This document shows, one piece after another, positions 6,412 to 56,787 of a DNA stretch of 64,000 nt (position 1 is the first letter of the stretch; the number at the start of each line of letters is the position of its first letter). The notes below the pieces were generated by a model. The model was not told the DNA's origin. It did no database searches and was given only the letters and a program-made list of their open reading frames with translations. The DNA lies in contig NZ_JAAVUY010000004.1 in assembly GCF_018449695.1 (NCBI RefSeq), forward strand, positions 1-64,000, in the 5' to 3' direction. Both the position numbers and the translations under genes were made by a program. Origin of the DNA: Bradyrhizobium sp. dw_411. GTDB taxonomy: Bacteria; Pseudomonadota; Alphaproteobacteria; Rhizobiales; Xanthobacteraceae.

Positions 6412-6909
6412 CTACCAACGGCCAAACCAACCTTTTTTCTGCTCTTCTAGATTTGAGCCGCCATCTGCTTTTTCAATTTGCTGGCGATAGATAATTGGAA
6501 ATTCGTCATCGTTGTAAAATGGCATATCGACAAGCTCCAGCCCCTGAAAAACTGCAAACTTCAAATGTTGGCCGGTGAGCAACGCGATGAGCTGACGTTG
6601 AATTCCTTGTGAAGTCCGGGGCGACATGAGTGCGCCTTTTCCACCATCGACGGATTTTACATCCACGCCCACCGGCATAGAGCGGTCGGCACCCATTGGG
6701 ACGAGTGAAACACCCAAGTCGAGGCCGTCCACAACCGCGAATGGTGCGAACCTGTACGAAAGGGTCGTTGCCGTGGAGCCTTTTTCGATCTTGCAGGTAA
6801 AAATGATGATGGCGACGTGCTGTTTCGTCCGGGAGTCCGTATAGTCCATGCGGCGTTTCATCTCGCCGTCTTCAACCGACCACGCGCTGTAATCCACGCC
6901 TACTGCCAT
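6412..6909 (-). CDS. Hypothetical soluble protein
   Basis: ATG 6909 is preceded by GGAGGACACC, an excellent ribosome-binding site, so this start is well supported over the longer frame to 6948. The 165-residue product is mixed alpha/beta without signal peptide or membrane span and ends in a basic, Trp-containing tail. It is upstream of the KTSC-like gene on the same strand. Family not recognised. Confidence 0.55.
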   Translation of the reverse strand: MAVGVDYSAWSVEDGEMKRRMDYTDSRTKQHVAIIIFTCKIEKGSTATTLSYRFAPFAVVDGLDLGVSLVPMGADRSMPVGVDVKSVDGGKGALMSPRTSQGIQRQLIALLTGQHLKFAVFQGLELVDMPFYNDDEFPIIYRQQIEKADGGSNLEEQKKGWFGRW

Positions 6910-7823
6910 GGTGTCCTCCTGCCGGGTACTCAGATTCGCACTAGACACGGGTCGATTGCAAGTCCCGTTTAGGGGTGCTGCAAGTGGCAGCTGGGAAAAT
7001 CTGAAATTGTTTGACGATCGGGACTGGTCGGCTCACGATTCCAGCGTGCAAACAATCCAAACCAAGAAGCGGGGCGGGCGCCGCGTCGGCAGCGCGGTAC
7101 TGGCCGGTTTGGAGAACCGACACTACGCGTTCCCGTGCGCCGTTCGACGACTGGCTCATTGATATCCGGCAACGCCAGCGGATTAAACGGCTCGACCTGC
7201 AGCGCCGCGTATCGGAGTTGCTGCGAGATAACGGCCAAAGCCCACAAGCGCATCATCTTCGAACATCAGAACTGGTACGCGCGCGACATCCGCTATGTGC
7301 CGGCGGGGCAGGAGACCTGGGGGCGCTACCTTCGCCACGGCGGCGGTGTTGGTAATGCAGGTCGGGCATATGGCTGAGTCGTCCGGGACGGGGCCTCGGC
7401 ATGTTGCGGCTGTGGCTGATGGTCGGAAGTTCCGCTTGCTGGCTGAGGAGCCTTACTCGGCTCAGTGACGGGTGGTTGCAGTTCTGTACGGCGCGTCGAT
7501 TCACGAATTGTCAGATAGAACGAAACCGCCATGATGGCTGCAGAAGGCCGTGACTGATTTGCCGAAACGGCGTCATCGGCATCCAGTACGGCAAGCGGCC
7601 AGTTCGATCTCGCGATGTCACGGCGCCATAAAGCACTGAATTGACAGGGGTAATCTGAATTACCCTTTCATTTAGTATCAGATTGAGGAACCGCTGATAC
7701 CTCAGCGGAAGGCGGTGCGTCGCTGCGGTTGGCGACTGGCCGTCGCGCTACCGTGCGAGTGCGTTGCGGTTTTTGCCCAGTCCCACACGGTCGAAACAGG
7801 GCGTCGCAAGACAGGAGGTCGGC
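6910..7823. other. 914-bp stretch without a well-supported gene
   Basis: Several overlapping frames exist on both strands, none clearly coding. A minus-strand frame 7326-7532 (68 residues, Pro/Gln-rich after a short hydrophobic start) is the most gene-like but has no ribosome-binding site or family. Sequence around 6990-7330 looks like decayed coding DNA with frameshifts. Confidence 0.35.
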
Positions 7824-8042
7824 GTGTCAGATCAGGATGCGAAATACTCAGATTTGGTGGAGATCGCCAAATGCAGCGGCGATTTCAAGAAGAATTATGG
7901 GGCGGCCGGCGGGGGTCTGCTCATGGCTTGGTTCTCGTGGCTTGCTCACCTTGCCAACCGTCCTCGACCTGTTTTGCGGCTCGGGTGGCTTTTCGCTGGG
8001 GCCAGTGCCTACTACGGTGCCTGGAAGCTGTGGTTGTCCTGA
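7824..8042 (+). CDS. Small membrane protein
   Basis: GTG 7824 is preceded by AGGAGGTCGGC, a strong ribosome-binding site, so this start is chosen over a longer unsupported frame. The 72-residue product has a soluble N-terminus and two short hydrophobic stretches (about 28-43 and 50-70). It lies 21 nt upstream of the DUF5677-like gene and probably begins that operon. Confidence 0.5.
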   Translation: MSDQDAKYSDLVEIAKCSGDFKKNYGAAGGGLLMAWFSWLAHLANRPRPVLRLGWLFAGASAYYGAWKLWLS

Positions 8043-8063
8043 CCGAAACCTTAGGGTTGCGCA

Positions 8064-8840
8064 ATGGGTTTGCTGGAAGACTGGTTATCCTTCACGGATA
8101 GGCTGCTCGCAACGGGAGTCTCCGTCATATCAACCGGGGTGGTTGACCTGGCCGAGGAGAGCCGTGCCGACCCCAAGGTGCTGTGCCTCCTGCTTCTGAC
8201 CCGCACGATGTCCCACGTCAAAGCGGTGAGGGCACTGGCAAAGGTAGGCAGGACACTGGAAGCCCGCATCCTTGCCCGCAATTGCTTCGAGAACAGCTTC
8301 TATGTCGCCCGGCTGGCCAAGGACGGCAACAAGTTCGTCATGGAAATGCTGGAAGACGAGAAGAAGCGCAGGGTGGCACGGGGCCAGCTCCTGTTTGAAC
8401 ACCAGCTCGTCATGGAGGACGAAACGGAATCGAAGTTCCGCCAGTGGATGAAAGACCACAAGGGCTGGGCGAAGGGGGAGACCCTAAGCCCCAAGGGGAT
8501 CGTCAGAAAAACGTCGATCGAGAAAAGCTACGTCTTCTATTCGGAGCTGTCCGTCGATGCCCATCCGTCAACCGATACGCTTTCCCGCTACCTTCTGCCG
8601 GCGGACGAACAGGGCCGTCCCGGAATCGACCTTGAGCCGCCGTTGAACCCGGAGGAACTGGTCGATACGCTGAACCTCAATGCCTGCGCGGTTCTTGGCG
8701 TGCTGTTCGGCGTTAATGAGGTGATGGAAGCCGAAGCGTCGCACCTTCTGACCGATCTCGCGAACGAGTATCAGGAGCTGGAGAGGCGCGGCAGGGAACG
8801 AACCGACAAGCGAGAGGGCGGCGAACGTGGCGTACAGTGA
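8064..8840 (+). CDS. DUF5677-like helical protein
   Basis: The 258-residue all-helical protein has an L-E-A-R-I-L-A-R-N-C-F-E-N-S-F-Y-V-A-R-L helix at about residues 67-87. It resembles the R-x-x-x-E helix of DUF5677 and related HEPN-fold proteins. A later conserved-looking V-D-A-H-P-S segment (about 165-170) supplies a His. The Glu/Arg-rich C-terminus overlaps the next gene by 14 nt. Similar proteins often occur in defence islands, but no function is established here. Family assignment is tentative. Confidence 0.55.
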   Translation: MGLLEDWLSFTDRLLATGVSVISTGVVDLAEESRADPKVLCLLLLTRTMSHVKAVRALAKVGRTLEARILARNCFENSFYVARLAKDGNKFVMEMLEDEKKRRVARGQLLFEHQLVMEDETESKFRQWMKDHKGWAKGETLSPKGIVRKTSIEKSYVFYSELSVDAHPSTDTLSRYLLPADEQGRPGIDLEPPLNPEELVDTLNLNACAVLGVLFGVNEVMEAEASHLLTDLANEYQELERRGRERTDKREGGERGVQ

Positions 8841-9597: not shown

Positions 9598-12500
9598 TTG
9601 GGTCACGCTTCGTCGGTGACCACTTTTTTGGGTGACCGTATGGCAAGACTCGCAGGATTTCCGGCAGAGACGTTTTTTGCGATGCAGCGCATCCGCGAAA
9701 CGGCGCTTGTGAAATTTGATAGCCTTTTCTCACCCGATAGAAACATCTGGACTCTCGAATCGCTTCGACAATTTCACTCGTTGTTCGTCGATCGATTCGA
9801 CGATGGCCAAGGTAACTTCCTTGAAAAATTCAAAAAGCAACTTGAAGGAGCTAACAATGATATTGTGCAGCTTGCCGCCGAACTTCTCTATGTTCAACAG
9901 TTCTTCACAAGTCTCACCGGACCAGACAAAAAACTGGAAAACGTAACGACGATCCTTAGCTGGGGCGCGCATTCGCCGCAAATTCCACGTTGGGCGGTTG
10001 AAGGTGTGCAGCACAAAATTGCCGCCGACCAGAGCTTCAATCAGCACCGTCCGTTTCATCTCGCCTGGCTGAGTGAATTCTTAATTCATTGGCAGGAGTT
10101 GCAAGCGGTGACGAGAGATAAACTACTTAGCGATCCATTTGGCTTTGCCAAAGATGTGCGCAGCATAGAATTTGAGCGCGGAGCCTTCCAGCCGATGCAG
10201 GAGGCGTGGCTGCACATCGCGTTCCCAGAAACGTTCGAAAGCATCTCGTCAAGAAATGATAAGAAACAGATACGTGACGCCTTTTATGACCGCCTTACCA
10301 AGGGTCCTTCCGAGAATATTGATGCAGATCTTTTAGAAATTCGCAACAAATTGACAGAGCAAGCAGGAGCGGGATTTCATTTTTACAGATCGCCAATCGT
10401 TGAACAATGGAAAGAAGCAAACCTTTATGAGCACGACATTGATTTAATTCGGCAAAGCCGATCTCGTGAGAAATACGCGGATTTTTCTGCGGAGGAAAAA
10501 GCAGCACACAAGCGGGTGCACGAGGCACTTCTAAGGCTCGGTCAGGTTGCGCTTGATGAACTCGGTGGGCCCAGAAACTATGTTCTCAAACGCACTTCAG
10601 GATTCCATCCCGAGTCTGGAATTCGCGGGGGAAAGCCAAAAGACCTTTGGTTTGGGATCTATCGTAAGGAAAATGAAGACAAATTTCTTGGTAACCCTCA
10701 AATCTTTATGATTGTCTCAGGCCGAGGAATCGAATGGGGATTTTCTCCCTTGACGCACCCGGATGATTTTTCAAATCAAGAGATGCGACGGCGTACACGG
10801 GAGATTGCCAAGGCCGTACTCGAGCAACTTCCTGTCGCTGGCTCGCTCGAAGCCCAAGAGCTGGCCTCCCAGCTTTCGGAATCAGGCAACTGGCACTTTA
10901 GACGAAAACAGCGTCTTGACCCAAAGCAGTCGGAGTTTGCCTCTCTGGCGGATTGGCTTTCGTTTCTGCATACAGATGAGGGCGCAAAGAACGCCGGTGG
11001 GGGGATTACTCGATATGCACTGGGCAAAGAAATTGACGGGCTAGAGCTTGTAGAGGAAGTCAAACAAATGACGCAACTCTTCAAACCGCTCATGGAGCGG
11101 ATAATAGCGGAGTCGCCACCGACCGCCGCCGCATTCAAAGAGCCCGAACCTATTGAATCAGTCAGCCCCGTTGCGCTCACGCCTTTCGGCGAGCTCCTGC
11201 GAGCCTTCCTTCAGGAACTTAGCCTTGTACGAGGCGGGCCCTTCCAGAAGACGGATCCTCTCTGGAATGCAATGTCGGCCGTGAAAAATCGACTGGAACA
11301 GTTTGAGCCGGTTCAAAGCCGTCCCAATTTTCAGGTAAATATTAGTGTTGGCCAAGGTAACTGGGCGACCGTGCCGTGGATAGCAATCCTGAACACCAAC
11401 GTTACAAAGTCAACCCAGGAAGGTGTCTATATTGTTTTTCTTATTTCCAAAGAACTGAACCGCATTTTTCTGACTTTGAATCAAGGTACGACGAATCTCG
11501 TTCAAGAACTAGGCCAACGCGAGGCACAAAAACAGATGCTTGACGTTGCTAGCAAGACGCGGAGTGTCGTTTCAGAACTCGCATCAGCAGGATTTATTTT
11601 AGACAATGAAATTGAATTGGGCGGCGGAGGTTGGCTTGCGAAAAACTATGAGATTGGAACCATAGCGCACATCGATTTTGGGACAGACAACTATCCAAAT
11701 GATGAACATATGAATGCGTTGCTCGAGGCATTGATCAAAGCCTACGACCGAGCAGTTGACGAAACGCCATCAGAGACTCTTCCGACAAAAGACAGTTCCC
11801 TAGAGACGCAAGCAATTGAAGCGGAGGCATACAGGATAGAAGATGCTCTCTCAGAACTGTTCCTGGAGCAGGCACAGCTCGAGCACCTTTTGACGATCTG
11901 GGACGCAAAGAAGAATATTATCCTACAGGGAGCGCCTGGCGTCGGTAAAAGCTTCGTAGCTAAACGTCTCGCCTACCTCATACTTGGGCAGAAAGATTCC
12001 AGCCGGATCGAAACAGTTCAATTTCACCAGTCTTACAGCTACGAAGACTTCGTTCAAGGATATCGTCCCAATGGAAAAGGGGGCTTCACGCTTCGCGATG
12101 GCGTCTTTCACAGATTCTGTGAAAAGGCGAGACTTTCGCCGGGCCGAAAACACGTGTTCATTATAGATGAAATTAATCGAGGCAATCTTTCGAAGATATT
12201 GGGCGAGCTCATGCTGCTTGTTGAGCCCGACAAAAGAGGTCCGGCGTGGGCCACGAGTCTGACTTATGCTCAGCCCGACGAGCCGCGATTTTTCGTGCCC
12301 AAAAACGTTTACCTGCTGGGTATGATGAATACTGCCGATCGATCACTATCGATGGTTGATTACGCGCTTCGTAGACGGTTCTCGTTTATATCACTTGAGC
12401 CGATGTTTGGGAGCAGTAAATTCAGATCGCTCCTTGCCGACAATGGCATCCCTCAGCCGATGATCGATCTTATCGTTTCACGCATGATTGAACTGAATGT

Positions 12501-12711
12501 GGCGATTGGCGAAGACCGCGCAAATCTCGGACCAGGCTACCGAATAGGACACAGCTTCTTCGTGCCGATTGAAGACTTTGAATATGATTCCGGTTGGTAC
12601 CGACGTGTAATTGAAACAGAAGTGCACCCACTACTTGAAGAGTACTGGTTCGACGACCCCGATAAAGCTCAGGGCTGGCTTCAAAAGCTTCTTGAAGGCA
12701 GCGCGATATGA
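9598..12711 (+). CDS. mcrB: McrB-type AAA+ GTPase of type IV restriction, long form
   Basis: The 1037-residue protein has three parts. Residues about 1-470 are an N-terminal extension that resembles the unnamed N-terminal regions of long McrB homologues. About 525-720 is an MrcB_N/DUF3578-type domain (W-A-T-V-P-W-I-A-I-L, L-N-Q-G-T-T). About 765-1030 is the AAA+ motor, with Walker A G-A-P-G-V-G-K-S near 780, Walker B F-I-I-D-E-I-N-R-G near 855 and the M-N-T-A-D-R-S motif typical of McrB GTPases near 910. It drives McrC cleavage of modified DNA. The start is TTG 9598 after GAAGAG; ATG 9640 is an alternative. The stop overlaps mcrC. Confidence 0.92.
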   Translation: MGHASSVTTFLGDRMARLAGFPAETFFAMQRIRETALVKFDSLFSPDRNIWTLESLRQFHSLFVDRFDDGQGNFLEKFKKQLEGANNDIVQLAAELLYVQQFFTSLTGPDKKLENVTTILSWGAHSPQIPRWAVEGVQHKIAADQSFNQHRPFHLAWLSEFLIHWQELQAVTRDKLLSDPFGFAKDVRSIEFERGAFQPMQEAWLHIAFPETFESISSRNDKKQIRDAFYDRLTKGPSENIDADLLEIRNKLTEQAGAGFHFYRSPIVEQWKEANLYEHDIDLIRQSRSREKYADFSAEEKAAHKRVHEALLRLGQVALDELGGPRNYVLKRTSGFHPESGIRGGKPKDLWFGIYRKENEDKFLGNPQIFMIVSGRGIEWGFSPLTHPDDFSNQEMRRRTREIAKAVLEQLPVAGSLEAQELASQLSESGNWHFRRKQRLDPKQSEFASLADWLSFLHTDEGAKNAGGGITRYALGKEIDGLELVEEVKQMTQLFKPLMERIIAESPPTAAAFKEPEPIESVSPVALTPFGELLRAFLQELSLVRGGPFQKTDPLWNAMSAVKNRLEQFEPVQSRPNFQVNISVGQGNWATVPWIAILNTNVTKSTQEGVYIVFLISKELNRIFLTLNQGTTNLVQELGQREAQKQMLDVASKTRSVVSELASAGFILDNEIELGGGGWLAKNYEIGTIAHIDFGTDNYPNDEHMNALLEALIKAYDRAVDETPSETLPTKDSSLETQAIEAEAYRIEDALSELFLEQAQLEHLLTIWDAKKNIILQGAPGVGKSFVAKRLAYLILGQKDSSRIETVQFHQSYSYEDFVQGYRPNGKGGFTLRDGVFHRFCEKARLSPGRKHVFIIDEINRGNLSKILGELMLLVEPDKRGPAWATSLTYAQPDEPRFFVPKNVYLLGMMNTADRSLSMVDYALRRRFSFISLEPMFGSSKFRSLLADNGIPQPMIDLIVSRMIELNVAIGEDRANLGPGYRIGHSFFVPIEDFEYDSGWYRRVIETEVHPLLEEYWFDDPDKAQGWLQKLLEGSAI

Positions 12712-13796
12712 AGATTCCAATTCGGAATCTTTACTATTTGTTTCTCTATGCCTGGGCTCAATTCCCCGACGGTGCTATGGGGGAAGCTGGAATTGACGAA
12801 AGCCCCGATCTTCCAAACCTATTTGCCAAGATGCTCGCGGCGGGGACACGCAGAATGTTGAGGCGGGGTCTCGATCGAGGCTACAAAACATTTACCCACG
12901 AAGTAGTCGGTCCGCGCGGTCGTCTTCGCTTGGATCGCATGATCAAAGAGGCAACCCAGCTTCGAGGCACGGCAATCTGCGATCTCGATGAACTGACCCA
13001 CGATGTTCTGCACAATCAAGTTTTGAAAGCAACACTGGCGAGCCTTGCAATTTGTCAGGACGTTGAAAAGGCAGCAAGGCATGACCTCCGAGCCCTGGGG
13101 AAACTCTTTTACGACGTCGAAGACATACGCCTTTCGGCGAGTGATTTCCGTCGGATCGCTGTATCGCGAAATAATCGTCAGTACGTTTTTCTCATGCGAC
13201 TGTGCGAATTCGTCTACTGGTCTTTAATGCCTGATGAGCGCGGAGCGAGATCGCGATTTCAGCACGTACTCGACGACGAAGTGCGCATGTCGGCTGTTTT
13301 TGAGACGTTTCTCAGGAATTTCTTTCAATTTCATCGAACCGAGTATCGCGTCCGCGCCGAATCGCCGACGTGGCACGTCACTGATGCTACCCAAGATGAC
13401 CTTGCATTGTTGCCACGAATGATCACGGATATCACACTCCGCCAATCAGATCATACGATCATTATCGACGCAAAATATTATAAAACGACATTAGCAAAGG
13501 GACTTTACGGGGAGAGAGTAAAATCAGACAACCTTTATCAGCTGATCACCTATCTTCAGCACGAGCGCAATAGTCAAAAGGACAGAGCTCTCTCGGGCAT
13601 GTTGTTATACCCAGATGTAGGCCGGTCGCTTCACTTAAAATATCGACTGCTCGATATTCCAGTTCTTGTTGCCACAGTTGACTTAGCCCAAGAGTGGCGA
13701 GCCATCGAGAAGCAACTGCATGGTCTGTTGGAAGATTGCGCCGCAGCTGCACGCTCGACAAATGGCCAGAAAAGTTCGCCTCCGGGCATTTTATAG
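12708..13796 (+). CDS. mcrC: McrC endonuclease subunit
   Basis: The 362-residue protein begins with the I-P-I-R-N-L-Y-Y-L segment typical of McrC. Near residues 240-260 it carries the PD-(D/E)XK nuclease core, seen as M-I-T-D-I-T-L followed by I-I-I-D-A-K-Y-Y (catalytic Asp, Asp-Ala-Lys). The ATG overlaps the mcrB stop by 4 nt, so the subunits are translationally coupled. The catalytic residues are intact, so the system may be active against methylated or otherwise modified DNA. Confidence 0.9.
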   Translation: MKIPIRNLYYLFLYAWAQFPDGAMGEAGIDESPDLPNLFAKMLAAGTRRMLRRGLDRGYKTFTHEVVGPRGRLRLDRMIKEATQLRGTAICDLDELTHDVLHNQVLKATLASLAICQDVEKAARHDLRALGKLFYDVEDIRLSASDFRRIAVSRNNRQYVFLMRLCEFVYWSLMPDERGARSRFQHVLDDEVRMSAVFETFLRNFFQFHRTEYRVRAESPTWHVTDATQDDLALLPRMITDITLRQSDHTIIIDAKYYKTTLAKGLYGERVKSDNLYQLITYLQHERNSQKDRALSGMLLYPDVGRSLHLKYRLLDIPVLVATVDLAQEWRAIEKQLHGLLEDCAAAARSTNGQKSSPPGIL

Positions 13797-22911: not shown

Positions 22912-24729
22912 CTAAACAACCGCATCCTCGAGATCCTGACGTCCGACACGTAGAGCCTGTCCCATCCTTCTACGGGCATTCTGCAAGGCGTCGTAAAAGT
23001 CATCAGCCGCCAGGCTTAGACTTTCTGGAGATTGGGCTCGAGCCATGTCCTCCGTGGACCATTCTCGGTTCAATTGTTTCGCCAGCGCAAACACGACGGC
23101 ACGGCCAACCTTAAGCGTCATCGTACGCTCTGCAAGGTCGTGCGCCATGCGACGCATAATCTCCGGATCCGGGGACGCCGCATATTCCGTCTCTAAAACA
23201 GATTTCATTTCATTTACGGATGGGTAGTTCATGTTCACGAACAACTGCCCCGACTCCCGATAGAACTTAGCGGCTTTTCCTTTAATGCCTTTCTCTTCAA
23301 TCGCAGCATCATCATGTAACGGTATGATTTCGGGGGCCCTCTCGGCATTCAGCGAGACGGTAGCCCGCTTAGCACCGGTGGGAGCAGCGAGGACGTCGTC
23401 CTGGATGCCGCGCGGGTTCTTTCCGGATGACGCTCCATTCCCGTCACCCTGTTGATTTCCCCGCACGCCAATCCCTTGATTGCGATCGACAAGTATGTCG
23501 CCTTGGAGTGTGACTCGCGGTGTTTCGGAGCGAATACGCAAGGCGTTTAGAAGTTTTTGTAATTCATTACGAATCTCTCCAGCACTTTCGGAATCCGCTG
23601 GCGACAGGGAGGAGATGATTTTCAAGAGCCATTCGGGTCGCTTTTCTCTAACCAAGTTGGCAAAATCCTCAGCCTCAACCTGTCTTTGATCATCTTCTTT
23701 GTACCGTAAAAACTGTCGATATGCTTCAGGACGCACGGCAAAATCATCCGGCAACTCTATGTGCACGGAGATGTGTTTGGCTCCGAACGCTATCCCAAAA
23801 ATCGGCGCGTCAAGCGTCCACTGTCGCCCGCGCTTCAAGTCGTACATTTCATTCTTGTGAACAATTGCGCAGGTGCTCACGTCAGTTGTCATAGCCCCGC
23901 TTACAGAGGCATTGTGGCTGGTGCTCTTGAGCGGAGGATCATAGAAATAATGGATAGTGATTCCCGTGGAACTCGACACACTTTCGGAGTGACCTAGTTG
24001 ATAGGCGCGGCTAGGGATGGTTTTGAAAACCCGCGTTCCGTCCAACTTGTGTGCACCAGGTGCAAATCGCACCAACAAGCCCTCGGGAAGTCTGTAGAAC
24101 CGGTGATAAAGCGTGTCGGCAATCCATTGTTTTTGGACTGACGGATTGCCATCGTATGGATCACGCACGGTATCTTGGTCGGCGCGATTTCCGAAGAGTA
24201 CTACTTCGGTCCAGTCTCGTGCGAGATCGTAGCTGCCTTCTGATTTGCATGCTTCTGTCACATCGACCACCTCCTCGATGGTGCCAGTTTCCGAAAGCTC
24301 CCGCCTGTAGCGACCGTACACGCCATCGCGTTCGCACAAGATGACTTCGCTAACCACTCCTTGTTTACAAGATCGGTATCTAAGGCCGTAGCGATTGGAG
24401 GGCAGGGAAGCTACTTTGGCACCCATCCCAAAGTTCTCATCCAGGCCTTTGTCTTTTCCTAGCGATGCAGCCAAGTCACATACGCCGTGCAGTTCTTCAC
24501 TGGACATACCTGCTCCCGTATTCCAAATGCACAACTTCTGAACGCCCCCGATCTCCTTGACCTTGATCTCGATTACTTTCGATCCATCAACTGTTGACAT
24601 CGCCGATTCTTCGGCATTCTTGAAAAGCTCTCTGATCATCATCGTTTTTGGGCACCGCTCGATCAGGCTGGCGATCAAGAACGCTTCATCTGCGACGTGC
24701 AGCGGGGCAACCTTGGTGGTTTCAAACAT
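22912..24729 (-). CDS. GHKL-type ATPase (Hsp90/MutL/histidine-kinase fold)
   Basis: The 605-residue protein shows the Bergerat ATP-binding motifs: N-box R-E-L-F-K-N-A-E-E at 33-41, G1 W-N-T-G-A-G-M at 69-75 and G2 N-F-G-M-G-A-K-V-A at 99-107. The rest (about 200-605) is not recognised and contains a low-complexity Gly/Asn-rich linker near 420-440, separating a middle domain from a helical C-terminus. No His-kinase dimerisation helix or toprim domain is visible. It is the second gene after the DGQHR gene (69-nt gap with a hairpin). A role as the motor or effector of a defence cassette is inferred. Confidence 0.8.
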   Translation of the reverse strand: MFETTKVAPLHVADEAFLIASLIERCPKTMMIRELFKNAEESAMSTVDGSKVIEIKVKEIGGVQKLCIWNTGAGMSSEELHGVCDLAASLGKDKGLDENFGMGAKVASLPSNRYGLRYRSCKQGVVSEVILCERDGVYGRYRRELSETGTIEEVVDVTEACKSEGSYDLARDWTEVVLFGNRADQDTVRDPYDGNPSVQKQWIADTLYHRFYRLPEGLLVRFAPGAHKLDGTRVFKTIPSRAYQLGHSESVSSSTGITIHYFYDPPLKSTSHNASVSGAMTTDVSTCAIVHKNEMYDLKRGRQWTLDAPIFGIAFGAKHISVHIELPDDFAVRPEAYRQFLRYKEDDQRQVEAEDFANLVREKRPEWLLKIISSLSPADSESAGEIRNELQKLLNALRIRSETPRVTLQGDILVDRNQGIGVRGNQQGDGNGASSGKNPRGIQDDVLAAPTGAKRATVSLNAERAPEIIPLHDDAAIEEKGIKGKAAKFYRESGQLFVNMNYPSVNEMKSVLETEYAASPDPEIMRRMAHDLAERTMTLKVGRAVVFALAKQLNREWSTEDMARAQSPESLSLAADDFYDALQNARRRMGQALRVGRQDLEDAVV

Positions 24730-24759
24730 GCGATAGGACTTTCAATTGAAGGGAAAATT

Positions 24760-24788
24760 GAACCTCGCCCTAAACTAGGACGAGGTTC
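24760..24788 (-). terminator. Intergenic hairpin between the DGQHR and GHKL genes
   Basis: On the minus strand GAACCTCG-T-CCTA, loop GTT and TAGG-G-CGAGGTTC make a 13-bp stem with one wobble pair, followed by AATTTTCCC. It could partly terminate transcription and lower the amount of GHKL ATPase relative to the DGQHR protein, or protect the upstream mRNA. Confidence 0.55.
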
Positions 24789-24798
24789 ACTGGCATTC

Positions 24799-26259
24799 TC
24801 ACTTTTGATGGCGGTTCGGTAATTTTAGGCGCCACCGGATCATGTCTGAAAGGATCGGGAAGATGTCATTGTGCTTTGCGCCGAAACGCATGAGCCCACC
24901 CTGGAATGATCCCAGATCGCGGTTCGCATCGCCGGTAATCTCGCCGCCGGCGGGAAGATATGCGGCGAGCCCGGCTAATCCCATGTCACTTCGTTCGGTT
25001 TCGCCGAGTTCGTAGTAGCGCCACATTGGATTGTTGTGGCTGAAGTCCAGCGAATTCAATCGCGAAAAGAATGTATCCAAAAGCGTGTCCCCGTTGTCGG
25101 GACGACGATTCGAGAAAGCTAGATCAAAGACCACTTTCGCAATTGCTTTCAACACGACCGGTTGAGCGGCGACCGTTTTGAGCTTTGCGCCCGGTTTCCC
25201 ATAATCTTTGATCCTAAGAATTGAACTCCACATACGCGACACAGTTTCGACGCGCGGCTCAACAATTGCCGGCGTAGCACCAGCGACATTACCTTTGTTG
25301 AGAAACGCGGTGGCGTTTACGGCGACGATATCTCGACGAGAAAGGGCGCCGTCGTCATTGTTCCAATCGGTCTGTTCGCTTTCGCAATCCTTCAACTTAA
25401 GCTCGTTGATGAGGACATCTTCGATGAACTTGGTAATTGGGTTCGAGCCATCGAATTTGAGCGATAGGGATCGGGTGACCTTCTTTCCGAGATTGTTGAG
25501 ATCGTGGAACAATTGCCTTTCTTGGTCGATCGAGAGGCCAAGATGCAATTCGACCTGGACCGTCGCGAACGATCGGGCGCATTCGAGTGCTTCCATCCAT
25601 ACGGCCATGTCTTCCGGCGCGACCTTGCCCCTAGCAGTGTAAAGATTATTGCGAGCCGGATAGCTTCCAGTCTTCGTGACAGTTTCAAGGAATTCCCTGG
25701 TGATCTGCCCTCCTGCCAAGCGATGCTGGCCATCAATCATCCACCATCGATAGTGCCGGGGCAGGTAGACCTGAAATCCGCGTGTCTCATTGTTGGTGGA
25801 GAGAATGCGATCAGCCCGGACGGACGGCTTGTCGGGCTGAATGTCGCGGATGTTCGCGACAAACGGCTGAAGCGAAAAATAGGGCTGTGATCCCAATTGA
25901 TGCAGCACAGTGCCGAACGTCTCAGGGATTTCTTTGCCTTGGAGGTGCTTCCTGGCCATGGCTGCGTTTACTAGCCCTTTCAGCATGTAAACCGCCAAGC
26001 CGCGGGCATGGTTCATGTCCAGCGGCCGCTGAGCAACTTCCCCTTTTTCAGGATCGTTCGCGACCGATGACCATTCGATCAACTTCATCAGCGTCACATC
26101 CGCCGCCCACGTCATCCGGCCGAGATTGTAACCCACCAGTACCGTGAACGGCTCTTCGTCAGAGCTTGTGAAGGTCATCATCTCGTCCAGGCTGCCTGAG
26201 GTGATTAGCGCCTCATCGACCGCCATCGGCTTCGGCATACCCTGCGTATTTCCAAACAT
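24799..26259 (-). CDS. DGQHR-motif protein (DndB/DpdB-like)
   Basis: The 486-residue protein has R-W-W-M-I-D-G-Q-H-R-L-A-G at 171-183, the DGQHR signature shared by DndB (phosphorothioate systems), DpdB (deazaguanine systems) and stand-alone relatives. L-F-H-D-L-N-N-L-G-K-K-V follows near 250-262, the usual downstream motif of the family. ATG 26259 is preceded by GGGAGGTG and preferred over TTG 26328. No dndACDE or dpd genes are nearby; the only partner is the GHKL ATPase. A strong promoter with an operator-like inverted repeat precedes it. DNA-modification sensing is inferred from the family. Confidence 0.8.
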   Translation of the reverse strand: MFGNTQGMPKPMAVDEALITSGSLDEMMTFTSSDEEPFTVLVGYNLGRMTWAADVTLMKLIEWSSVANDPEKGEVAQRPLDMNHARGLAVYMLKGLVNAAMARKHLQGKEIPETFGTVLHQLGSQPYFSLQPFVANIRDIQPDKPSVRADRILSTNNETRGFQVYLPRHYRWWMIDGQHRLAGGQITREFLETVTKTGSYPARNNLYTARGKVAPEDMAVWMEALECARSFATVQVELHLGLSIDQERQLFHDLNNLGKKVTRSLSLKFDGSNPITKFIEDVLINELKLKDCESEQTDWNNDDGALSRRDIVAVNATAFLNKGNVAGATPAIVEPRVETVSRMWSSILRIKDYGKPGAKLKTVAAQPVVLKAIAKVVFDLAFSNRRPDNGDTLLDTFFSRLNSLDFSHNNPMWRYYELGETERSDMGLAGLAAYLPAGGEITGDANRDLGSFQGGLMRFGAKHNDIFPILSDMIRWRLKLPNRHQK

Positions 26260-26298
26260 AAGCACCTCCCGCAAATCGGCAAAATTACCGTCCTGGCC

Positions 26299-26365
26299 TC
26301 TATAAATATTATCCCAGGAAGAAGTCAAATCTTTTTTTTCGGCTTCGATAACATTCCTGGGATAA
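26299..26365 (-). promoter_or_regulatory. Promoter with 12-bp inverted-repeat operator
   Basis: On the minus strand TTGACT (26328-26323) and TATAGA (26304-26299) are separated by 18 nt. The half-sites TTATCCCAGGAA (26309-26320) and TTCCTGGGATAA (26354-26365) are perfect inverted copies, 33 nt apart. One lies inside the promoter spacer and one upstream. A repressor or looping protein binding here would control the DGQHR/GHKL operon. Confidence 0.65.
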
Positions 26366-26558
26366 AATATAATTCACCTGGATGATTGTGCTGGCCGGCT
26401 TGGCGCTAGTCTTTGGAGCGGAAATAATCGACAAACCAACAACTTAGAGAAGAGCATGCTAAGTTACTCAATTTTACCCCGAGGGTCTGTCACAGCTGAG
26501 GGCGAGCCAAAATGACTAAAAGCTATTTTGTCGAATCGGTCTTTGAGAGCCGCAGTGA

Positions 26559-31443: not shown

Positions 31444-32601
31444 TCACGCAACGCTGCGATGTAAACAGATATTTGCACTAACGCAGTAGTCGGCCCATTC
31501 ATTCATAAGAGCGCGCCGCTTCGCGAGCGCCGTTGAGCGGCGATAGGCAACTTCCGTTTCGTCCCCGACAGCATGCGCCAGCGCCATTTCGGCAATCTCG
31601 CGCGGAAACGTCGTACAGTCGCCGGCCCAATCTCGGAACGTCGATCGCATGCCGTGCGTCGTGGCCGGAGAGTTAGTGTGGCGCGCAATGCAGTTTGACA
31701 ACGTGACATCCGACACGGGCCGGAACGGAATTTGAGCCAAGGCTAGGTTCGCTAGCGGCACCTTGTGCTCACGCTCTGCTTTCATGCGAACGGCCGGAAT
31801 CGTCCAAAGGTCTCCCTTTACCTCGCCGGCCGGGTTCATCGCGTCGGCCTCGTTGAACCGACATGCGGTCAGGATGATCCAGCGAAGCATCCGAGCGGCG
31901 TGGCTCGTGTCGCCTGCCAGTGAGCGCCAGAACTGCGGCATTTCTTCATAGGGCAGGGCCGGGTGGTGCTGCACGTCGGACTTACGGCGTCGCGCCAGGA
32001 ACTGATCCAGATGGCCGCGCCACAGCGCGGGATTTTCGCCAGTTCGTAGACCTTCGGCCTTTGCGCCATTCAAGATCGCTTCAACGCGTCCGCGCACCCG
32101 CCGCGCCGTTTCTTTCTTCTCGTTCCATATCGGGTCGAGCACTTTGCGAACGGCTGCGGTATCGACGTCACAGACCCGCAAATGCCCAATGTGCGGATGG
32201 GCGTAATCGCGCAAGCTATTTGACCACTGTTGGCGATGCTTATCGTTTTTCCAGCCGGCCTCTTTGCCCGCGATGTACCGCTTTGCATAGGCTTCGAACG
32301 TGATCGCCCCCGTGGCGTCGGCCTTGACCTTGGCTCGCTCGGCTATGCGGTGCTCAATGGGATCGACGCTATTCCGCACAAGGGAGCGCGCCGCACTGGC
32401 GGCCTCGCGTGCCGCGGCCAAGCCAACGTCCCGCATGGGACCTAGGCCCATGAACCTCTCTTTGCCGGTAACGGGCGATTTGAACCGGAAAACCCAACTC
32501 GCGTTTCCGTTCTTATCGACGTCGAGCCGTAGCCCGTCACCGTCAGCCAGTTTGTCGCCAGGCTTGGCATTCTTCACTGCCAATGCGGTTAGAGTTCCCA
32601 T
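31444..32601 (-). CDS. P4-type tyrosine integrase (DUF4102-type N-terminus)
   Basis: ATG 32601 follows GGAGGGATTAGCG, preferred over TTG 32616. The 385-residue protein has the N-terminal D-G-D-G-L-R-L-D-V segment of P4-like integrases and the catalytic set: Arg in L-T-A-C-R-F-N-E-A, H-x-x-R in T-H-G-M-R-S-T-F-R-D-W, and His/Tyr in L-A-H-A-V-G-D-E-T-E-V-A-Y-R-R. It lies 172 nt from the 3' end of tRNA-Ser, the usual target of this family. It probably inserted the left-hand island. Confidence 0.88.
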   Translation of the reverse strand: MGTLTALAVKNAKPGDKLADGDGLRLDVDKNGNASWVFRFKSPVTGKERFMGLGPMRDVGLAAAREAASAARSLVRNSVDPIEHRIAERAKVKADATGAITFEAYAKRYIAGKEAGWKNDKHRQQWSNSLRDYAHPHIGHLRVCDVDTAAVRKVLDPIWNEKKETARRVRGRVEAILNGAKAEGLRTGENPALWRGHLDQFLARRRKSDVQHHPALPYEEMPQFWRSLAGDTSHAARMLRWIILTACRFNEADAMNPAGEVKGDLWTIPAVRMKAEREHKVPLANLALAQIPFRPVSDVTLSNCIARHTNSPATTHGMRSTFRDWAGDCTTFPREIAEMALAHAVGDETEVAYRRSTALAKRRALMNEWADYCVSANICLHRSVA

Positions 32602-32772
32602 CGCTAATCCCTCCAAAGTGTCCGCCTAAACCCACGTCCTCACCCACGTCTGAAACGCGGATACGGGTTGACACGCGGAGACATTGAAACATGCGAAACT
32701 TAATTTTCGCGTTAAATTTCAATGGTTTGGGTGTCAGGTATGGACGTGTAAAGACACGTATGGATTAGCAGG

Positions 32773-32862
32773 TGGCGGAAGGGGTGGGATTCGAACCCAC
32801 GGTACCCTTGCAGGCACGCCGGTTTTCAAGACCGGTGCCTTAAACCACTCGGCCACCCTTCC
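32773..32862 (-). tRNA. tRNA-Ser (anticodon UGA)
   Basis: Read on the minus strand the gene starts GGAAGGGTGGCCGAG, has an anticodon loop CTTGAAA (UGA, Ser), a long variable arm as in class II tRNAs, the GGTTCGAATCC T-loop and an encoded CCA end. The acceptor stem pairs GGAAGGG with CCCTTCC. Both halves are used by mobile elements: the 3' end by the left island, the 5' half by the right element. Confidence 0.95.
32824..32862. other. Attachment site, left copy (inside tRNA-Ser)
   Basis: These 39 nt (tRNA 5' end to the anticodon loop) are identical to 48438-48476. The element supplies this half of the tRNA, so the gene stays complete after insertion. Confidence 0.85.
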
Positions 32863-32945
32863 AAACCAGTAATATCAAGCACTTAACTTAGGGTGCCTGA
32901 GAACGCAACCCGAACGACTGTCCCAAGATTGTCCCAAACGCCATT

Positions 32946-34100
32946 TCAGGTGCCCAGGACCGCGTTGATCGCAGCCGCCGCCTTGCTATCGTCCTTCCTA
33001 AACAGGTGCGCGTAGATCCGCAACGTGATGTCCGGCTTACTGTGACCGAGCCGCTTCGAAATGGTGACGATATCCACCCCTAGATCGATCAATTGGCTGG
33101 CATGGGTATGGCGCAGGTTGTGGAAACCTACGTCAGGCATCTCGATCTGATCCGCGAAGTCGCTCCATGCTTTGCTGATGCGCTTCTGAGAAGGCAAAGC
33201 ACCGTCGACCCCAACGAAAAGCAGCATCCCGGGTGCCAGCTTGCCTGCCCCTAATTTGATGCGCAGTTCCAATTGAGCCTTGCGGAAATCGCGCAGCGTA
33301 TCGACCAGCTGATCGGGCAGGGTGACGTCACGGCGCCCGGCTTTGGTTTTCGGTGCTTTGAATCGGATCCCTTGCGTTTTGGTCTCCTCCAGCGCCTCAC
33401 GGACCTCGATCACCTTGCGCTCCAGATCGACGCGACCCCATCGCAGCGCGAGGACTTCACCAATGCGCATGCCTGTGAACAGCGAGATCATGGCCGGTAC
33501 AAATAGGCGGTGAGGGCGCAAGCGCTCGATAAACGCCGGCAGGTCTTTCACGATCACCATTTCTTCGTCACCAACCTTCGGCGGCGACTGCGCGGCAACT
33601 ACGTTTTTAACGGTGACTTCGTTTCGGACGGCATCGCTGAGAGCTTTGCCAAGGACGCGGTGCGCGTGACCGATCGTTCGGGGTGCAAGGCCGCCTTTGC
33701 CGTCCGCTCTGCCACTATTCCGCAATGTGGTGTGCCACTCCTCGATGTCGAGCGGTCGCAGCTTCTGGACAAGCTTCGTGCCCAGGTGCGGGGCGATCTG
33801 ATTTTCGACAAGCTCGCGATACCTGTCCGCGGTGCGGGCGGTGATTTCGCCGGACGCTTCCCAATGCTCCACACGCGAACGAACGAAATCAGCGACCACG
33901 ATCTTACTCGGTTCGACGAATTGTCCCTTGTCGGCTGAGCCAAGCAGATCGCGGATCTTCGCTTCTGCTTCTTCCTTCGTGCCGTCGAACATCTGGGTGT
34001 GCCGCTTGCCCTTCACCCGGTACCGGATGCGGAATTTGTTCTGCCCGAATTGTTGAAGGCCACCGGTACGACCTGTCCGCTTGCGCTTGGCTCTAGTCAT
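32946..34100 (-). CDS. Phage-type tyrosine integrase
   Basis: ATG 34100 overlaps the stop of the upstream RHH gene by 8 nt; the longer frame to 34424 is rejected. The 384-residue protein has an N-terminal arm-binding region, a core-binding SAM-like domain (about 70-170) and the catalytic set: Arg in F-T-G-M-R-I-G-E-V, H-x-x-R in F-H-N-L-R-H-T-H-A-S, and His/Tyr in L-G-H-S-K-P-D-I-T-L-R-I-Y-A-H. It lies 83 nt from the 5' end of tRNA-Ser and matches the 39-bp att repeat. Confidence 0.92.
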   Translation of the reverse strand: MTRAKRKRTGRTGGLQQFGQNKFRIRYRVKGKRHTQMFDGTKEEAEAKIRDLLGSADKGQFVEPSKIVVADFVRSRVEHWEASGEITARTADRYRELVENQIAPHLGTKLVQKLRPLDIEEWHTTLRNSGRADGKGGLAPRTIGHAHRVLGKALSDAVRNEVTVKNVVAAQSPPKVGDEEMVIVKDLPAFIERLRPHRLFVPAMISLFTGMRIGEVLALRWGRVDLERKVIEVREALEETKTQGIRFKAPKTKAGRRDVTLPDQLVDTLRDFRKAQLELRIKLGAGKLAPGMLLFVGVDGALPSQKRISKAWSDFADQIEMPDVGFHNLRHTHASQLIDLGVDIVTISKRLGHSKPDITLRIYAHLFRKDDSKAAAAINAVLGT

Positions 34101-34611
34101 TGCCTTCACCCTTTCGATTGCCGTGGATACGCTCGATTTCCTGCAAGGTTTCTCTGTTGATGGCGCGTACGCGATCGCGAGCTGCGCGATCACGATTTTG
34201 CAGCACGTTGTCAGCCAATGCGGTCCCCACGTCGTCAGCGTTATTGAAGGGGACGCTTGCAAGCGGCCTGTCCCGAAACGGTGCCACCTTGACGTCGTCG
34301 AACAGGTTGTCGTTGTAATCGGCAGGCCGCCATTTTGAGATTGCGCGTAGCAGCATGCGCCGGAAGGTTCGATGCGCAATGCCGTCGCTGTGCCATTGAG
34401 TGCCAAGCTCAAGCTCGACCTCACGTGCTAGCTCGAAGATCAGGTGCGAGAATTCTCTAGTCGGTTCGTCCGCCTCGTCTTCCAGGGCAACGAGATCAAG
34501 TCCGCGCTTGATGGCGTCGGTGATGCTCTCATCGCGCTTACGCAGCCGATCATAGGTTTCGCGCGGCAGACGAATTGCCGTCTGCACAGATTCTTTCTCC
34601 GGTTTTTTCAC
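34093..34611 (-). CDS. Ribbon-helix-helix regulator-like protein
   Basis: The 172-residue product starts at GTG 34611. Residues about 8-40 (V-Q-T-A-I-R-L-P-R-E-T-Y-D-R-L, then I-T-D-A-I-K-R-G-L) fit a ribbon-helix-helix DNA-binding domain. The remaining helical part may mediate oligomerisation. It is coupled to the integrase gene and faces the HTH gene at 34731, so it may repress one or both operons through the TTATACAA repeats between them. Confidence 0.65.
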   Translation of the reverse strand: MKKPEKESVQTAIRLPRETYDRLRKRDESITDAIKRGLDLVALEDEADEPTREFSHLIFELAREVELELGTQWHSDGIAHRTFRRMLLRAISKWRPADYNDNLFDDVKVAPFRDRPLASVPFNNADDVGTALADNVLQNRDRAARDRVRAINRETLQEIERIHGNRKGEGND

Positions 34612-55536: not shown

Positions 55537-56787
55537 ATGCGCAATCCGTCACGACGCGATTTATTGATTGGAACGACGGCGCTGGCCGGCGCCATCATAG
55601 CCGGCGAAGGTCCGACATTCGCCGCTGAGCCTTTCGACCTCGTGATCCGGGGCGGTGAAGTCATTGATCCCAGTCAAAACTTACGTGGCATTCGTGACGT
55701 CGGCATTCGATATGGTCAGATTGCCGCGGTCGAACCCACGATTGATCCGGCGCGTGCCAAGCGCTCTATCGACGCCAAGGGAAAACTGGTCACGCCCGGT
55801 CTGGTCGATCTGCATACGCATATTTATGCGTATGGATCCGCAATTGGCATTCCGCCCGATGAATTGGTGCCATTCTCCGGCACCACCACCTATGTAAGCG
55901 CCGGTGATGCCGGGGCTAATAACTTCTCGGCATTCAAGCGGGCCTTGGTGGCGCAATCCCGCAGCCGGGTTTTTGCTTTCGTGAACATCTCCACGATCGG
56001 ACTGGCCGGCTTCCCGGTCGGCGAGACCGAAAATATCAAATATGCCGATGCCGATGCGACCGCGCGGACCATCGCTGAAAATCAGGATATCGTGCTCGGC
56101 GCGAAGGTGCGGGAAACCCTGGCCATCGTCGGCAACAACGGGATCGAGCCGCTCAAGCGCGCCATCGAAGCCGTTGAACTCTCCGGCACCAAGGGCCGGG
56201 TAATGTGCCACATCGGAGATGCACCCGGTGATTTGCAGGTCCTGGTCAATACGCTGCGCCCGGGCGATATCCTGACGCACCCCTACAGCAGTCTTGGTAA
56301 TAACACCGTGCAGAACGGCAAGGTTCTGCCGGCACTGCTGGAAGCAAAAAAGCGCGGGGTACTTATCGACGTCGGGCACGGAGCAGGCAGTTTCAATTTC
56401 GATATCGCGGAGGCGGCAATCCAGCAGGGGCTGACCTTTGACACCATTTCCAGCGATGTGCATGTGGTTGCTGCAAACACGCCGAGCCAGCCCTATTTGC
56501 CCTGGGTCTTGAGCAAATTTCTGGCGCTGGGCTTCTCGCTCGAGGACGTTATCGCGGCTGCGACCATCAAACCCGCGACGATCATCGGGAAGGTGCCAAA
56601 ACTCGGCACGCTTCAGATCGGTGCACCCGGCGACGTATCAATTCTTGAGCTTATCGAGGGGCCGGTACAGTTGCTCGACACCTCGAACAATCCGCGTACC
56701 GGCAAGGCATATCTCAAGGCAGTGCAAACCGTGCGCGAAGGCGTGCCGTTCGGCCGTCCATATCAATTGCCATTTGCCGCGAACTAA
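55537..56787 (+). CDS. Tat-exported amidohydrolase/deacetylase
   Basis: ATG 55537 (55480 would add 19 residues) places P-S-R-R-D-L-L-I-G near the N-terminus, a twin-arginine signal, cleaved near T-F-A-A-E-P. The 416-residue protein then shows the amidohydrolase fold: V-D-L-H-T-H-I (two metal His), K-V-R-E-T (candidate carboxylated Lys), M-C-H-I-G, and S-S-D-V-H near the end as the catalytic Asp. It resembles the deacetylase branch related to dihydroorotases. It is divergent from the Liv operon, so it may act on a compound imported by that transporter. Confidence 0.8.
   Translation: MRNPSRRDLLIGTTALAGAIIAGEGPTFAAEPFDLVIRGGEVIDPSQNLRGIRDVGIRYGQIAAVEPTIDPARAKRSIDAKGKLVTPGLVDLHTHIYAYGSAIGIPPDELVPFSGTTTYVSAGDAGANNFSAFKRALVAQSRSRVFAFVNISTIGLAGFPVGETENIKYADADATARTIAENQDIVLGAKVRETLAIVGNNGIEPLKRAIEAVELSGTKGRVMCHIGDAPGDLQVLVNTLRPGDILTHPYSSLGNNTVQNGKVLPALLEAKKRGVLIDVGHGAGSFNFDIAEAAIQQGLTFDTISSDVHVVAANTPSQPYLPWVLSKFLALGFSLEDVIAAATIKPATIIGKVPKLGTLQIGAPGDVSILELIEGPVQLLDTSNNPRTGKAYLKAVQTVREGVPFGRPYQLPFAAN

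Follow-up and report, generated by a model that had tools for sequence, protein, structure and literature searches.

DndB is known as the repressor of DNA-sulfur modification genes, and a 2019 paper by Xia et al. is said, by its title, to describe ATP-modulated DndB autoregulation. In the account given for Salmonella, DndB regulates dndCDE as well as its own gene through two promoter sites of the form TACGN10CGTA (He et al., 2015, PMC4507180). A 2025 survey (PMC12704722) states that a DndB-like protein binds ATP and GTP; the sections consulted deal broadly with orphan ParB homologues and with a single DndB-like protein. Our literature search covered titles and the beginnings of abstracts, with most subscription journals outside its scope, and among the matches listed it returned neither a CCWGG operator of DndB nor a stand-alone DndB controller. 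Here we describe a DndB relative found without the modification genes, at least in the genome that carries the window, the stretch of 64,000 nt from Bradyrhizobium sp. dw_411 analyzed in this work. The element upstream of this gene is quite probably an operator array, through which an orphan DndB-family gene would regulate itself and repress the genes co-transcribed with it. DndB autorepression is known, and what is new is the orphan family, the helically phased CCWGG array and the variable cargo. Many members of this family keep a different and precisely phased operator.

The initial annotation of the window had reported a perfect 12-bp inverted repeat with its halves 33 nt apart, one of them inside the spacer of a TTGACT/TATAGA promoter, and both observations were borne out. 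The arm TTATCCCAGGAA (26309-26320) and its exact inverted copy TTCCTGGGATAA (26354-26365) are separated by a gap of 33 nt, and with mismatches tolerated the arms extend to 18 nt with 89% complementarity (26303-26320 / 26354-26371). This 12-mer has two exact copies in the 7.3-Mb genome assembly, which are the two arms themselves. The inner arm is located in the 18-nt spacer between the predicted -35 and -10 elements on the minus strand. This promoter was absent from the output of an automated promoter scan of the window because the scan requires a T at the last -10 position. The DndB-like (DGQHR) gene starts at ATG 26259 and is preceded by GGAGG; therefore, both arms lie upstream of it. By itself, the repeat tells little about function since it is one of four distinct inverted repeats in the window that are perfect over 12 bp and have a gap of at most 60 nt (8 overlapping seeds); 30 single-base shuffles of the window gave a mean of 0.13 such seeds.

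The reported repeat corresponds to two boxes of a larger array of four CCWGG-core sites (Table 1). The cores begin at 26292, 26314, 26356 and 26377, which corresponds to -37, -59, -101 and -122 from the start codon. The boxes are near-palindromic, separated by A/T-rich spacers, and their distances of 22, 42 and 21 nt, or two and four helical turns, place all four on one face of the helix. Box 4 would cover the expected transcription start, as predicted from the -10 element. The window holds 105 CCWGG sites, which form a phased chain of at least three only at these boxes, and a chain of four under random placement of 105 sites had P = 0.00045 (20,000 placements) with a spacing set picked post hoc.

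Table 1. Features of the array, its predicted promoter and the genes downstream (window coordinates).
Feature	Position	Strand	Basis or remark
Box 1, core CCWGG 26377-26381, ATCCAGGTG on the minus strand	26375..26383	-	absent from the initial annotation
Box 2 (outer repeat arm), core 26356-26360	26354..26365	-	sequence
Predicted -35 (TTGACT)	26323..26328	-	consensus match only
Box 3 (inner repeat arm), core 26314-26318, in the 18-nt promoter spacer	26309..26320	-	sequence
Predicted -10 (TATAGA)	26299..26304	-	consensus match only
Box 4, core 26292-26296, GGCCAGGAC on the minus strand	26290..26298	-	absent from the initial annotation
Ribosome-binding site GGAGG	26265..26269	-	sequence
DndB-like (DGQHR) gene, 486 aa, presumed autorepressor; ParB/Srx-like N-terminal half and helical C-terminal half	24799..26259	-	
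Intergenic 14-bp hairpin (DndB-like/GHKL), T-run short and weak	24759..24789	-	z -4.19
GHKL-type ATPase gene, 605 aa, presumed downstream cargo	22912..24729	-	HATPase_c_3 and sacsin N-terminal domain, weak, both under cut-off

Relatives of the locus were retrieved from species genomes (7 loci), plasmids (12 records, 5 with a coverage of at least 80%), phages (21 records, all from Pseudomonas phages, of which 5 were taken for analysis) and IMG/VR (23 loci). Further genome searches found relatives in 2 of 197, 3 of 385 and 0 of 398 genomes besides the source genome, which was found each time. Plasmid searches with the proteins of loci L021 and L010 yielded no additional record, a viral scan with the L017 protein gave no match, and one with a protein alignment gave no additional contig. 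The upstream sample consisted of 30 regions of 200 nt, the window (W) counted. Left out of the counts were L014 (upstream region beyond the contig), the partial loci L011 and L032, the phage loci L041 and L043, the distant partial matches L046-L055 (all ten of which entered the wider scan for chains below), and L023 (Paenibacillus pPC02), in which the DndB-like gene is annotated in several pieces as a broken near-copy of that of L022, with the same boxes.

Half of the sampled regions, from Alphaproteobacteria to Bacillota, carried 2 to 6 CCWGG boxes (W, L010, L012, L013, L016, L017, L019, L020, L021, L022, L030, L031, L033, L034 and L035), with only two boxes each in L022 and L030. The other 15 regions had none within 200 nt. 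Eleven of these box-free loci belong to one clade of the Pseudomonas-phage type (L024-L028, L036-L040 and L042); the others are L015, L018 and the two closely similar viral contigs L044 and L045 (32% identity to the window protein). The check proposed in the initial annotation, a search for the same repeat upstream of homologous operons, thus succeeded in form but not letter for letter, as at least two CCWGG boxes were present in 14 of the 29 relatives. With the Pseudomonas-phage clade and L044/L045 set aside, 14 of the remaining 16 had them. The inverted, possibly looped geometry that the initial annotation had emphasized proved incidental. Indeed, the four boxes of L021 all read CCTGG in the same direction, and L031 carries three direct copies; hence, the two arms are near-palindromic boxes of an array rather than the halves of a palindrome or of a required loop.

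Two of the box-free loci showed features of their own. Upstream of position 5001 in L015, two CCATGG boxes lie 44 nt apart, one of them in a predicted promoter spacer; operator and protein could have changed together at this locus. L018 has a candidate CCWGG chain (317-414) that lies some 290-356 nt ahead of the start; in the leader behind it, repeated segments were seen by eye. As a control, 15 loci were taken from the canonical DndB model, of which 13 had a readable gene (6 of these 13 over the model cut-off), and none of these 13 canonical or distant DndB genes had two CCWGG in the 250 nt upstream. Partial DndB matches on Rhizobium/Bradyrhizobium plasmids (L082-L084) were short or broken genes with no phased boxes; a single CCAGG box was present near the DndB fragment of L084.

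The motif was first noticed in W, L012 and L013. Without these three, the remaining 27 regions contained 44 CCWGG versus 6.0 expected from base composition. In the 23 regions read after the motif had been fixed, 34 were counted versus 4.9 expected, all of them in 10 loci; L016 and L017, seen before that point, were excluded from this count, yet they are inside the following 14-region test. In the 14 regions outside the box-free phage group, the count was 44 versus 3.1 expected, a comparison that flatters the motif since the grouping was made post hoc by box presence (L033-L035 in, L044 and L045 put with the phages). CCAGG/CCTGG ranked first among the 512 strand-symmetric 5-mers in these 14 regions, and the next form of this type reached 1.75-fold.

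Spacing between neighbouring boxes was equally regular, with 40 of 42 spacings near whole turns of B-DNA. Using classes defined after the data had been seen, 29 were at 21-23 nt (21 nt eight times, 22 nt 18 times, 23 nt three times), 5 at 31-32 nt (31 nt three times, 32 nt twice) and 6 at 42-44 nt (43 nt four times, 42 and 44 nt once each), with two others (64 and 80 nt). In a larger set of 74 stretches (582 kb, 957 CCWGG), in which some phage loci and distant viral loci are near-copies of one another, we found 16 phased chains of at least three boxes, of which 13 were directly upstream of a DndB-like gene; the other three (L014, L018 and L068) were not in that position.

The boxes also kept a preferred place relative to the predicted promoters. 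At 10 of the 15 array loci, the predicted promoter with the best score had a box centre in its spacer (mean of 3.6 for rigidly shifted arrays, P = 0.0002), and at 12 of 15 it had one either there or just upstream of the -35 element (mean of 5.7, P = 0.0002), with a promoter matrix built from general knowledge and a search range narrowed after an earlier, wider run. Wider search settings also gave 10 of 15. The predicted spacer was empty of boxes in L012 and L021, and neither preferred position was occupied in L010, L022 and L031. We chose the start codons of L010, L020, L031 and L034 ourselves; with the first possible ATG, L010 has two boxes at -5 and +17.

To the array corresponds a single constant neighbour. 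Across 16 loci (the 15 array loci once each and L015, in stretches of 2.7 to 15 kb), the DndB-like family was the only family of ORFs of at least 70 aa common to all; two further ORF clusters, found in 4 to 6 loci, were on the opposite strand within the DndB-like gene. The family spans at least two phyla and occurs on plasmids, islands and phage-like contigs. The window protein passed the curated cut-off of the Pfam family PF14072 (DndB) with 76.6 bits versus 29.1. It reached only 16.6 bits (E 0.00076) with the PADLOC DndB model, and its 35.1 bits for the NCBIfam DGQHR domain TIGR03187 were under the cut-off of 58.85. The DGQHR pentapeptide (D176-R180) was invariant in the 14 aligned rows. In the source genome, no match was found to the DndB equivalog TIGR03233 at E 0.001, nor to dndC (TIGR03183) or dndD (TIGR03185). 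The TACGN10CGTA site was absent from the 200 nt upstream of the window gene and of its 29 relatives, its one copy in the window being elsewhere, at 55815. It was absent upstream of the 13 canonical or distant DndB genes too, suggesting that this operator may not be general.

The AlphaFold2 model of the whole protein had a mean pLDDT of 80.4 and a pTM of 0.49. In the structural comparison of the N-terminal half, the 14 top rows all had a ParB/Srx-type domain (Z 4.4-7.5, against 4.1 for the next unrelated row), with the best alignments to SspE, ParB, PadC, Noc, KorB, DndI and BrxU; three of the 14 had an rmsd of 7.6 to 13.6, and a Z below 8 may reflect a common arrangement only. Foldseek gave no match under E 0.001. 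We assign a ParB/Srx fold to this half with moderate confidence from the model. The C-terminal half, which is the possible DNA-binding part, was modeled confidently (pTM 0.89) and had no clear match in the structure search. Its best rows, for the plant NLR NRC2 (Z 5.1) and for NLRP3 (Z 3.0), were discarded as weak and possibly due to a common helical arrangement only. A sequence search of solved structures returned one match that was not credible (E 0.073). Based on its constant position behind the array, the DndB-like protein is most likely the one that binds the CCWGG boxes. The initial view of a repressor-controlled operon, possibly autoregulated by the DGQHR protein, is supported as regards a repressor-type site that overlaps the promoter and is probably bound by this protein.

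The genes behind the DndB-like gene were far less uniform. The initial annotation had placed it in an operon with the GHKL ATPase gene. This pair was recovered in the window and in L033, where the GHKL protein is 63% identical to that of the window, and in these two loci only was a GHKL gene directly behind the DndB-like gene. Moreover, the strong hairpin between the two window genes calls a simple two-gene operon into question; it is possibly a partial terminator or a processing site that could lower GHKL transcription and set the ratio of the two genes. In L017, a distant GHKL gene (26% identity) is on the opposite strand. In the Polymorphobacter plasmid L019, the DndB-like gene is followed by genes for a Cap15-type CBASS effector (PF18153, 1.2e-35) and an oligonucleotide cyclase (PADLOC PDLC00772, 1.5e-147), a pair located at 6472-8228, with C5-methyltransferase and Vsr genes further on. 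The upstream genes of L012 encode a Vsr protein, a C5-methyltransferase and a weak Eco29kI-like match under cut-off. A small ORF without assigned function is close behind the DndB-like gene in L013, L016 and L020; the next gene is on the opposite strand in L021, L034 and L035, and in L022 a co-directional gene without assigned function lies 418 nt on. The GHKL, C5-methyltransferase and Vsr families were each present in 3 of the 16 loci. Given this gene content, the controller seems to stay the same from locus to locus, with cargo that varies or is missing.

A GHKL gene as constant partner was rejected since the plasmid GHKL relatives L062-L065 had no annotated DndB-like gene in the stretch analyzed and no phased chains of two or more boxes. 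A GHKL search of the phages gave no match. In L063 and L064, the annotation behind the GHKL relatives lists an ATP-binding protein and a UvrD-type helicase, and in L064 a caspase-family gene is nearby; this gene set is possibly a separate defence operon. Related small methyltransferase-like genes (36% identity) occur in L017 (6801-7445) and L020 (3685-4302), in both cases convergent to the DndB-like gene. The window itself contains McrB-like and McrC-like genes (9598-13796), which form a defence neighbourhood. It also holds two integrase-type genes (31444-34424) by a tRNA-Ser gene (32773-32862, minus strand), likely marking the end of an integrated element.

To follow the array in the family, we used a tree of 30 proteins, on which the array label takes 4 changes, where shuffled labels take 10.3. 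The Pseudomonas phages group together in a single clade, and the join of this clade to the Bacillota rows (88/85) would point to loss of the array in the phages; this join was flagged as a long-branch meeting in a midpoint-rooted tree. Very long branches were also seen for L010, which has the array, and for L044/L045, which have none. The direction of array change is unsure for these reasons.

With the same kind of array upstream of many relatives, the element looks like a self-regulating switch for changing neighbour genes, some of them for defence. We infer that the DndB-like protein, with its ParB/Srx-like and presumably NTP-binding half, would bind the phased boxes cooperatively on one face of the DNA, where it would cover the -35/-10 spacer and the start site and block RNA polymerase. 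Its own transcription would be repressed together with everything in the same transcript, namely the GHKL ATPase gene here and the CBASS effector and cyclase genes in the plasmid relative. Release would come with a low level of the protein, as on entry of the element into a new cell, or with a change in the bound nucleotide.

An unlikely alternative is that the array serves as a centromere or as iterons, with the ParB-like protein and its sites acting in partition or replication of a plasmid or element, and autoregulation being secondary. Promoter overlap with secondary autoregulation is common in par loci, the N-terminal half resembles ParB, and five array loci are on plasmid records (including one near-copy). 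Integrase genes are annotated in L019 and L022 and are present in the window as well, and a ParA-type ATPase is encoded in the neighbourhoods of L012 and L021. However, a ParA-like gene is common to only 2 of the 16 loci, and the nine window proteins scanned near the array gave no ParA match. The window copy sits in a 450-kb contig of the 7.3-Mb genome, and the boxes keep a preferred register relative to the predicted promoters.

It is very unlikely that the boxes have a different reader, for example a host regulator or a cytosine methyltransferase. CCWGG is the Dcm site, and a C5-methyltransferase and a Vsr gene are found in L012, L019 and L061. On the other hand, 13 of the 16 loci lack that methyltransferase family in the compared stretch. 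Over the aligned parts, the linked enzymes share only about 25-27% identity with E. coli Dcm, and the best solved relative of the L012 enzyme is M.HaeIII. A Dcm methylation switch was rejected because these methyltransferases are not close to Dcm.

A role of the inverted repeat as RNA (a 5' leader hairpin or attenuator) or as an invertible DNA switch has next to no chance of being right. The arms could pair as RNA, but the fold had a z of only -1.70 and 11 of 200 shuffles were equally stable; transcription from the predicted promoter would begin beyond both arms, on their downstream side, and the one-directional and direct boxes of L021 and L031 indicate that pairing is not what is kept, which led us to reject the hairpin. 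A chance repeat near a promoter, for which the three other perfect 12-bp inverted repeats (gap of at most 60 nt) in the window could speak, is refuted by recurrence across species, together with phasing and place, and its probability is negligible.

An autoregulatory operator array thus being the preferred reading, a bolder extension can be offered tentatively. The orphan DndB gene and its phased CCWGG array may form a portable nucleotide-sensing cassette that mobile elements set in front of interchangeable cargo, CBASS and GHKL-ATPase genes among it. On this view, a ParB-like assembly in helical order would grow from the array across the promoter, and the cargo would be turned on when this assembly is released, on arrival in a new cell or during infection. 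If the operator reading is true, it would provide a testable system for repression by ParB-fold nucleotide switches. Phased CCWGG boxes would then be a signature by which further such controllers can be found, and the system could hint at the way in which some CBASS and GHKL-ATPase genes stay quiet until needed.

Three known systems invite comparison. Like the control (C) proteins of restriction-modification systems, the DndB-like protein would be an autoregulator on mobile elements, set ahead of cargo that could do harm. C proteins are small, recognize C-boxes and belong to the HTH type, whereas the window protein has 486 aa and is predicted to be of the ParB/Srx type. With KorB and the ParB-fold plasmid repressors, it shares a predicted ParB-type N-terminal half (KorB row Z 5.9, rmsd 8.3) and a presumed regulatory role on mobile elements. 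Unlike in KorB, no HTH was seen in the DndB-like protein, and the CCWGG array is presumably unlike KorB sites. The closest likeness is to Salmonella DndB/DptB, with the Pfam DndB family, the DGQHR motif and, in the account consulted, at least two sites in its own promoter (PMC4507180). Unlike the Salmonella dnd system, the source genome has no dndC or dndD match, and the cargo is another or none. Finally, where Salmonella DndB is described with two TACGN10CGTA sites (PMC4507180), the family described here has CCWGG boxes set 2, 3 or 4 helical turns apart.
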